DNA from: Anaerolineae bacterium
GTDB taxonomy: Bacteria > Chloroflexota > Anaerolineae > Promineifilales > Promineifilaceae
Assembly: GCA_023954475.1 (NCBI GenBank)
Contig: JAMLHW010000015.1
Location: forward strand, 1-64,000
Length of the DNA: 64,000 nucleotides
Direction: 5' to 3'
Every line of letters starts with the position of its first letter. The first letter of the stretch is position 1. The notes below the pieces were generated by a model. It was not told where the DNA came from. It made no database searches and saw only the letters and a program-made list of their open reading frames with translations. Both the position numbers and the translations under genes were made by a program. Positions 2 to 4,948 of the stretch are shown here, in pieces.

Positions 2-2398
<2,397 letters not shown>

Positions 2399-2501: not shown

Positions 2502-3938
2502 ATGTGGTTTGAAACGATAATTCGAGAAGAGACCGGCTGTGCGGCCTATATGGTTGGGTGTCAGCGCACCGGCGAATGTATGGTGTTTGATCCGTTGTGG
2601 GATATTCAGCCTTACATTGACATGGCCGAAGAAAAGGAGTCGAAGATTCGTTACATCATCGATTCGCACAGTCATGCCGACCACGTGTCGGGCGCGCGTT
2701 TGCTCGCCGAAGCGACAGGTGGCGAACTGATTTTGCCGGAACTGGCTGAAATCACGTACGACGCAACCCGCGTCAAACATGGCGACTTGATTCGTATGGG
2801 CGGCGTTGGTATCGAAATCGTGCACGTGCCGGGCCATCGGCCGGAGCAAATCAATGCGCTGATCTACGACTATCCACGTGGTGACGAGCCGTGGTTTATC
2901 CTAACGGCCGATTTCGTGATGGTTGGCGACGTGGCGCGTCCGGACCTGGCGCAGGAGGGCGACGAAGGCGCGCCGGTTTTGTACGATGTGTCGATTCCGC
3001 GTTTTCTCGGTTTGCCCGATTACGTTGAGGTGTATCCCGGCCATTTGGCCGGGTCAACCTGAGGCCGTGTCACGAGTGGCAAGGTTGTCACTACCGTGGG
3101 TTATGAGCGGCGCTTCAATGATGCATTGTTGCAGCCGAGCCGTGAGCACTTTGTCGATTACATGCAGGATGACCAGCCGCTTAAGCCGGCCAATATCCTC
3201 AACATTGTAGCGACGAATCAGGGCAAGCGTCCGCTGACTGCTGCGCCACCGAAAGCCAAGCCGTTGTCGGCGAAGCAAGTGGCTCAGTTGCAAGCAGATG
3301 GGCATTACATCGTCGATTGCCGCAGTTCGGCCGAATTTGGGGCGGGCCATATTGCAGGGTCGATCAATGTTCAACTCTCCAGTTCCGAGTTTGAACAGCG
3401 CGTCGGTTGGATGGTTCCTGACGATGCACCTATTGTGTTGGTTACGGGCAAAGATGCCGACGCACAGCGAGCGATCTACAACATGGCTTTTATCGCGCTT
3501 GATTCGCAAGTCACCGGTTTCCTTAAAGGCGGTATGGATGCCTGGATGGAAGCGGGCAAGCCTTTGGCGACAGTTCCGCAAATCGACGTCCATACACTCA
3601 AGCACAAACTGAGCACCAACGGTTTGCAGGTACTCGATGTGCGCGACAGCGAAGAATGGGACGAAGGCCATATAGATGGCGCGCATTTCATGCCTTATAC
3701 GAGCATGGTGCAGCAGTTGACCAATCCGCCCCAACTTGACAAACTGGCGATACGCACTGATCAAAGCGTTGCTGTCACATGTGCGACCGGCAAGCGTTCC
3801 AGCACCGCAATCAGCATTCTGAAACGCAGTGGATACCACTCAGTCTATAATGTGACCGGTGGCATGAAAGCTTGGGAAGATGCCGGTTTTGAAATGCTCG
3901 ATGAAACGGGGTGTGTTGTTTGTAAAGTGGCAAGTTAG
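2502..3938 (+). CDS. CstB/Blh-type persulfide dioxygenase-rhodanese fusion, probable selenoprotein (Sec187 encoded by TGA 3060-3062)
   Basis: Read through the TGA, this is 478 residues in one uninterrupted frame. Residues 1-240 are a metallo-beta-lactamase-fold persulfide dioxygenase: HSHADH (His56, His58, Asp60, His61), His112 in VPGHRPEQ, Asp137 in TADFVMVGD, GDVARPDL and His181 in YPGHLAGS. A rhodanese-like domain without catalytic Cys follows (about 255-360), then a rhodanese with active Cys427 in CATGKRSS. The same order occurs in Staphylococcus CstB. Homologues read H-G-A-G-S-A-C-G; here the series is H-L-A-G-S-T-(TGA)-G, and the spacing of 13 residues to the conserved GYE is unchanged, so there is no frameshift. 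The enzyme should oxidise glutathione or CoA persulfide to sulfite/thiosulfate in the cytoplasm during sulfide detoxification. Start ATG is supported by GGAGG six bases upstream. Alternatives: a nonsense mutation or a base error. Confidence 0.8.
3060..3099 (+). promoter_or_regulatory. candidate bacterial SECIS element just after the in-frame UGA
   Basis: UGA is at 3060-3062. Bases 3071-3080 (CACGAGUGGC) pair with 3087-3092 (GUCACU) and, after a two-base bulge, 3095-3098 (CGUG); U3070-G3099 can extend it. The apical loop is AAGGUU (3081-3086), or AGGU if A3081 pairs with U3086, and starts about 18-19 bases after the UGA. The E. coli fdhF SECIS has a similar distance, a short apical stem and the loop AGGUCU. 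A G in the first loop positions and a loop 16-37 bases from UGA are the usual criteria for bacterial elements. Confidence 0.65.
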
Positions 3939-4046: not shown

Positions 4047-4538
4047 ATGGAATGGATCATGGAACCGTGGCCGTGGTATATCAGTGGCCCGATGATCGGG
4101 CTGACTGTCCCTTTGCTATTGATCCTGACTGGAAAGACGTTTGGTATTTCCAGTAGTTTCCGCCACATCAATGCGATGTGCATGCCGCGCACAAAGATAC
4201 GATATTTTCGTGATTACGATTGGCGTAGCTGGTCTTGGCAACTGATTTTTGTTTTGGGCATTGTTATCGGGGGATTTATAGGTAACTATGTGCTTTCAAC
4301 GACACCAGTCGAATTCTTGCCTGAGGCTTACTATAGTTTGAGTGGTGTGTTCCGACTGACGATTGGCGGTCTGCTCGTCGGTTTTGGCACACGTTATGCC
4401 AACGGATGTACGTCGGGGCATACAATTATGGGGATTTCAAACTTGCGCTGGCCAAGTCTGGTCGCGTCGATTTGTTTTTTTGTCGGTGGCTTAATCGTTG
4501 TCTATATTTTCATGCCGATATTTTGGGGTGTGTCATGA
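4047..4538 (+). CDS. YeeE/YedE-family sulfur transport protein, first half (PmpA-like)
   Basis: A 163-residue polytopic membrane protein of COG2391 type. It has about four hydrophobic segments and the signature YANGCTSGH, whose Cys is the conserved sulfur-relay residue in YeeE-like transporters. Start ATG 4047 is preceded by GAGG at 4034-4037; an upstream GTG at 4032 overlaps that site and is less likely. The protein is half the length of E. coli YeeE; the other half is the next gene, with which it overlaps by four bases (ATGA). Paired half-size proteins next to a Blh/CstB-type enzyme are the arrangement of the bigR-blh-pmpAB operons for sulfide detoxification. The likely role is moving thiosulfate or another sulfur species across the membrane. 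Related YedE proteins are linked to selenium metabolism, of interest given the TGA next door. Confidence 0.85.
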   Translation: MEWIMEPWPWYISGPMIGLTVPLLLILTGKTFGISSSFRHINAMCMPRTKIRYFRDYDWRSWSWQLIFVLGIVIGGFIGNYVLSTTPVEFLPEAYYSLSGVFRLTIGGLLVGFGTRYANGCTSGHTIMGISNLRWPSLVASICFFVGGLIVVYIFMPIFWGVS

Positions 4539-4948
4539 TGCAGCGTTTGATTATCCTCACACTCGGTGCCATATTTGGCACAACTTTGGTGAAATCAGAA
4601 GTCGTTTCATGGTTTCGGATTCAACAAATGTTCCGCTTTGAAGAGCCGTATATGTATTTGGTGATCGGGTCTGCGATTGCGGTAGGTATGGTTTCGGTGG
4701 CGTTGATCAAATATTTTCGGCCGAAAACAATCACGGGCGAAGAAATCATAATCAGTGAAAAACCTTACCATAAAGGCATCATATTCGGTGGCATCCTGTT
4801 TGGTATGGGCTGGGCAATCACAGGCGCGTGCCCGGGCCCGATCTACGCTCAAATCGGGTCAGGTGCTTATATTGCTATCGTCACGTTCTTCGCTGCAATC
4901 GGTGGCGTATTCCTCTATGGATTAGTAAAGCCTTATTTGCCGAATTAA
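4535..4948 (+). CDS. YeeE/YedE-family sulfur transport protein, second half (PmpB-like)
   Basis: 137 residues with several membrane segments and the second YeeE-family signature, GMGWAITGACPGP, whose Cys sits in a re-entrant loop in the family. The ATG at 4535 overlaps the stop of the preceding gene (ATGA), so translation is coupled; a second ATG follows at 4538. Together the two genes rebuild one full YeeE-like fold with its two Cys motifs (GCTSGH and GACPGP). The gene ends the sulfur block and is followed by a hairpin facing a converging gene. Confidence 0.85.
   Translation: MMQRLIILTLGAIFGTTLVKSEVVSWFRIQQMFRFEEPYMYLVIGSAIAVGMVSVALIKYFRPKTITGEEIIISEKPYHKGIIFGGILFGMGWAITGACPGPIYAQIGSGAYIAIVTFFAAIGGVFLYGLVKPYLPN

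Follow-up and report, generated by a model that had tools for sequence, protein, structure and literature searches.

Does an in-frame TGA that interrupts an otherwise intact enzyme gene of an Anaerolineae bacterium (Chloroflexota) end translation, or is it read as selenocysteine (Sec)? The gene lies in a 64,000-nucleotide stretch of contig JAMLHW010000015.1, hereafter the window, in which an initial annotation made from the sequence alone had proposed a selenocysteine persulfide dioxygenase resembling CstB. The conserved TGA, the Sec machinery of the genome and a SECIS-like hairpin support this proposal, with Sec insertion and activity remaining predictions. We put a probability of about 0.92 on a Sec form of a CstB-like persulfide dioxygenase-sulfurtransferase whose UGA is decoded by SelB and Sec-tRNA with the aid of the hairpin.

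Results and Discussion

A single TGA at a conserved cysteine position

The frame opens at ATG 2502, about 8 nt downstream of a GGAGG, and closes at TAG 3936-3938. Translation of 2502-3938 confirmed the claim of one frame broken only by a TGA at 3060-3062, which is codon 187 and the sole internal stop. Without recoding, the open reading frame listing gives this frame as two separate ORFs.

2502..3938, + strand: complete gene for the predicted Sec-containing persulfide dioxygenase-rhodanese, 478 codons from ATG to TAG, with TGA 3060-3062 translated as U
3060..3062, + strand: in-frame TGA aligned with CstB Cys201 and predicted to encode selenocysteine 187; TGA in 32/32 clade members

In the window protein the codon falls within the motif GHLAGST-U-GR. 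Alignment places it, as had been claimed, at a conserved cysteine of CstB-like proteins, namely the Cys of HGAGSPCG in 3r2u (chain position 225) and of HGAGSACG in 3tp9. We take 3r2u to be Staphylococcus aureus CstB; the PDB entry title is metallo-beta-lactamase from S. aureus COL. The number Cys201, given in the initial annotation, is used here as alignment position 225 minus an assumed 24-residue tag, and it is consistent with 3r2u provided that the tag has this length. The 13-residue spacing to GYE, described as intact, is present in the window protein.

Conservation and distribution of the TGA codon

A search of 98 genomes, the window's own and 97 relatives, found a close homologue in 14 further genomes (58-89% identity), and each of the 14 has a single in-frame TGA, located at the corresponding codon. 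We also scanned 84,980 species genomes with patterns derived from the Sec clade, which were not meant to find Cys members elsewhere; this yielded 31 loci, distributed over Chloroflexota, Gemmatimonadota and Acidobacteriota, again all with TGA at this position. These loci are partly the same genes as those of the 14 relatives; counted once each and together with the window's own gene they amount to 32 distinct loci, with TGA in 32/32, Cys in none and another stop codon in none. Outgroup homologues (34-42% identity) carry Cys at this column in 15/15 sampled cases, encoded by TGC in 11 and TGT in 4. The comparison of Cys and TGA at this column, suggested as a check by the initial annotation, gives TGA throughout the clade members found and Cys in all sampled outgroup homologues. 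Unrelated stops or frameshifts in close relatives, which would have spoken against its reading, were not found; the relatives carry the same TGA.

When 29 Sec and 15 Cys proteins were placed in one tree, a single branch (support 100/100) separated the Sec forms from the Cys forms. Three Gemmatimonadota sequences nest among those of Chloroflexota, and this nesting suggests lateral transfer of a selenoprotein gene. Gemmatimonadota (loci L064, L065, L067 and L083) carry the Sec form only sporadically, in 3/39 genomes around genome G100. Sec and Cys forms coexist in some genomes, for example G038 and G100. A scan of viral contigs detected no relative, and the best plasmid matches were below 60% identity (top match 40.9%).

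Comparisons of eight sequence pairs gave pN/pS values of 0.05-0.20 before the TGA and of 0.15-0.32 over the 288 codons after it. Judged by these ratios, purifying selection acts on both sides of the TGA, which bears out the earlier impression that coding character continues across it. A pseudogene or a one-base sequencing error could be imagined in an assembly where stops interrupt the 5' half of another gene, the FdhA-like one. These comparative data refute it and leave it practically no credence: the same codon is found in 32 separate assemblies, selection is strong on both sides, and there is no other stop or frameshift.

The same data bear on whether the UGA is a true stop, with the gene split into a short dioxygenase and an adjacent, separate rhodanese protein. 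The second protein could start at GTG 3096 or at codon +34, which is an invariant ATG. However, the stop is UGA in 32/32 loci, never UAA or UAG, and lies exactly at the Cys column, while conservation in the stretch from the UGA to the first possible start ranks among the highest in the protein. Gap, overlap and frame change are all absent, the downstream starts lack a Shine-Dalgarno sequence in 24/28 members, and the metallo-beta-lactamase domain would be deprived of its C-terminal part. We regard a split gene as very improbable, and UGA 3060-3062 is very probably read as selenocysteine and not as a stop, Sec incorporation itself being a prediction.

Synonymous constraint and a SECIS-like hairpin

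3076..3091, + strand: bSECIS-like hairpin in the consensus fold, stem 3076-3081 with 3086-3091, loop AGGU 3082-3085

Synonymous variation was tested in 28 sequences over 307 testable codon columns. Codons +5 to +9 from the TGA (AGT GGC AAG GTT GTC in the window) show none at all, with a same-codon frequency of 1.00 and a mean excess of 0.66, compared with 0.03 (sd 0.09) for 281 other columns, making them the block of the gene under the strongest synonymous constraint. In Cys homologues, codons at these positions vary freely. On the upstream side, codons -11 to -3 (3027-3053 in the window; GAG, CCC GGC, GCC) are also unusually constrained synonymously; CCCGGC-CAYNNN-GCCGGG could fold into a hairpin that stops about 7 nt short of the UGA and lies outside the published bSECIS model.

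The published model requires a loop of 3-9 nt, an upper stem of 4-16 bp, a G within the first two loop positions, a distance of 16-37 nt from the UGA and a minimum free energy of at most -7.5 kcal/mol (PMC13188914). The window hairpin meets these criteria with a 4-nt loop, 6 bp (nt 17-22 with 27-32, the U of UGA being 1), G as the second loop base, 19 nt from UGA to loop and a minimum free energy of -13.7 kcal/mol (nt 4-45). The loop reads AGGU, AGUU or AGGC among the sequences, and the core helix is present in the minimum free energy fold of 27/30, another fold being preferred by 3/30. Covariation gives no support since the helix is nearly invariant: no pair has changed on both sides, and shuffles do as well. 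Nor does the 45-nt stretch by itself have an exceptional folding energy (z -1.0). A role of the hairpin in decoding may be proposed from the synonymous constraint and the fit to the model, without support from covariation.

Selenocysteine machinery

The initial annotation had named selA, selB, selD and tRNA-Sec as genes to look for, and all four are present in the genome: selA (546 bits), selB (354 bits), selD (370 bits) and a tRNA-Sec with anticodon UCA. The selD gene (L010:1501-2436) is itself a predicted selenoprotein gene, with an in-frame TGA at the U of its N-terminal loop CAGUASK. Among the genomes carrying the Sec enzyme, 28/32 have selA and/or selB above the curated cut-off; the four exceptions (G038, G043, G107 and G110) are all metagenome-assembled genomes, for which completeness is given only for G038 (78%) and G043 (82%). 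Since selA is common across the group (above cut-off in 81/98 genomes searched), the Sec machinery is necessary but not discriminating.

We also examined fdhA as a second selenoprotein gene. The 5' half of the FdhA-like gene (G000:C1:172413-174395, L105) is interrupted, with two TGA and one TAA codons in the matched stretch, which may reflect either a pseudogene or a fault in the assembly. FdhA may therefore not be what maintains the Sec trait in this genome.

Downstream stem-loops can also be needed for programmed read-through, and the UGA could be read through with an ordinary amino acid, by Trp or Gly recoding or by a leaky near-cognate tRNA, giving a mixture of short and long forms. Yet UGA has not simply been reassigned, since other genes end at it and several relatives even use it to terminate the gene in question. 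The homologous residue is Cys, neither Trp nor Gly, the genome has a tRNA-Sec UCA, its selD also contains an in-frame UGA, and the hairpin fits the SECIS model. Ordinary read-through is as improbable in our estimate as the split gene; both were tested and rejected.

Domain architecture and predicted structure

2502..3236, + strand: metallo-beta-lactamase-fold persulfide dioxygenase domain (Pfam Lactamase_B, alignment and fold match)
2667-2684, + strand: ligand motif H56xHxDH
2835-2837, + strand: H112 codon, metal-ligand motif
2910-2912, + strand: D137 codon, metal-ligand motif
3042-3044, + strand: H181 codon, metal-ligand motif
3264..3551, + strand: pseudo-rhodanese domain without catalytic Cys (two Pfam Rhodanese stretches; loop LVTGKDAD lacks Cys)
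3573..3905, + strand: catalytic rhodanese domain (PF00581)
3780-3782, + strand: active-site Cys427 codon (CATGKRSS) of the catalytic rhodanese domain

Pfam, alignment and model agree on the CstB-like order of metallo-beta-lactamase, pseudo-rhodanese and rhodanese domains. The metal ligands and rhodanese Cys that the initial annotation had listed as kept are present as motifs and nearly all invariant, with H56, H58, D60, H112, D137, H181 and C427 unchanged across 32 homologues in the alignment; the ligand roles are presumed from the known family. A thiol or selenol is likewise available at the CstB Cys201 column, in the form of UGA (Sec) in the clade and Cys elsewhere. The invariant ligand motifs and rhodanese Cys427 support CstB-like persulfide dioxygenase and sulfurtransferase chemistry, the Fe(II)-dependent activity being inferred.

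An AlphaFold2 model built from 32 sequences has pLDDT 89 and pTM 0.85. In VIA-align its best PDB match is 3tp9 (Z 42.1, rmsd 3.3 over 451 residues), 3r2u gives Z 38.4 with rmsd 2.0 over 328 residues, and ETHE1-type proteins rank lower at about Z 30. The region around the Sec loop came out poorly in an earlier AlphaFold model based on 14 sequences, and in the 32-sequence model residues 188-193, the loop directly after Sec, have pLDDT below 50. We therefore claim no Sec-Fe distance.

Gene neighborhood

2..2398, + strand: 3' part of a molybdopterin oxidoreductase, a conserved neighbor; frame open toward the contig start
4032..4538, + strand: YeeE/YedE-type sulfur transport protein, half 1 (PF04143; same position in relatives)
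4532..4948, + strand: YeeE/YedE-type sulfur transport protein, half 2 (PF04143 and DUF6691; same position in relatives)

The oxidoreductase is truncated by the contig end at base 1 in the window. A complete homologue (L062:827-3862) carries PF04879, PF00384 and PF01568; its nearest NCBIfam model is thiosulfate reductase PhsA, and as this match is far under the cut-off a substrate cannot be assigned. At most Chloroflexota loci that reach far enough, a 4Fe-4S/NrfD protein and a molybdopterin oxidoreductase of about 1000 residues precede the Sec enzyme, which is followed by two Sulf_transp (YeeE/YedE-type) proteins and a TorD/NarJ-like chaperone. This operon is absent at the Gemmatimonadota (two) and Acidobacteriota loci examined. 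The transporters together with the persulfide dioxygenase/rhodanese suggest handling of persulfide, sulfite and thiosulfate.

Relation to known enzymes

The window enzyme shares with S. aureus CstB (3r2u) the order of persulfide dioxygenase, pseudo-rhodanese and rhodanese domains, the metal-ligand motifs and the rhodanese Cys. It differs in having Sec in place of Cys201, in overall sequence (about 30% identity), in an operon that includes a molybdopterin oxidoreductase and in the motif GHxAGSTUGRVxSGK, which is specific to the Sec clade. The metallo-beta-lactamase/rhodanese protein of Alicyclobacillus acidocaldarius (3tp9) has the same full-length architecture at 34% identity, but is a Cys form (HGAGSACG). 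ETHE1, BpPRF and Blh share the metallo-beta-lactamase dioxygenase domain, in some cases fused to rhodanese. Since the loop with Cys/Sec is missing from Myxococcus ETHE1 (4ysb) in the alignment, this residue looks like a feature of the CstB branch. The Blh model NF040641 scores 41.8 bits against a cut-off of 625, and no model of NCBIfam release 20.0 fits the window protein above its cut-off.

Known sulfur-related bacterial selenoproteins include rhodanese forms 1-5, YeeE/YedE with GUxSG and a selenoprotein type III sulfide:quinone reductase (PMC13188914, Table 1). They too have Sec in a protein handling sulfur compounds, but in other proteins or domains, and the list gives no metallo-beta-lactamase or dioxygenase domain for any of them. 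A May 2026 review counts 119 prokaryotic selenoprotein families, none of them a metallo-beta-lactamase, persulfide dioxygenase or other dioxygenase (PMC13188914). Our literature search found no description of the Sec form; most subscription papers were outside this search and a prior report is not excluded. We class the clade as a new branch, carrying Sec, within an enzyme family that is already known.

Proposed function and significance

In the proposed mechanism, SelB and Sec-tRNA(UCA) would decode UGA 3060-3062, aided by the hairpin at 3076-3091, and the product would be an enzyme of 478 residues in which Sec187 lies next to a mononuclear iron-site motif. Sulfane sulfur would arrive as a thiol persulfide or from rhodanese Cys427 and be oxidized with O2 at the iron to sulfite, from which the rhodanese domain would then form thiosulfate. 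CstB is known to convert two persulfides into thiosulfate (PMC9774590), and cysteines of other persulfide dioxygenases are glutathionylated, some being essential for activity (PMC6060420). Sec187 may be a better acceptor of sulfane sulfur, taking it up or positioning it as Se-S, or it may withstand irreversible over-oxidation close to the Fe/O2 site, a place at which CstB has Cys. Sec insertion, the iron, the substrate, the products and the role of selenium are all inferred, as there is no protein, 75Se or mass-spectrometry evidence.

A more specific possibility, which we advance only tentatively and consider rather doubtful, is that Sec187 is directly catalytic at a mononuclear non-haem iron, with a Se-S adduct coordinating or feeding the iron. 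If true, this would be a selenium-dependent dioxygenase, of which we know no example, and selenium would tune the sulfite versus thiosulfate product or protect against over-oxidation.

Most selenoproteins so far listed are thioredoxin-like redox proteins; on the Sec reading they are joined by a family that has a metallo-beta-lactamase fold and is predicted to be an iron dioxygenase. Ordinary gene calling splits these genes in two. The finding puts selenium into oxygen-dependent sulfane-sulfur oxidation, and the Sec clade and CstB form a natural Sec/Cys pair for asking what selenium buys near an Fe/O2 site.
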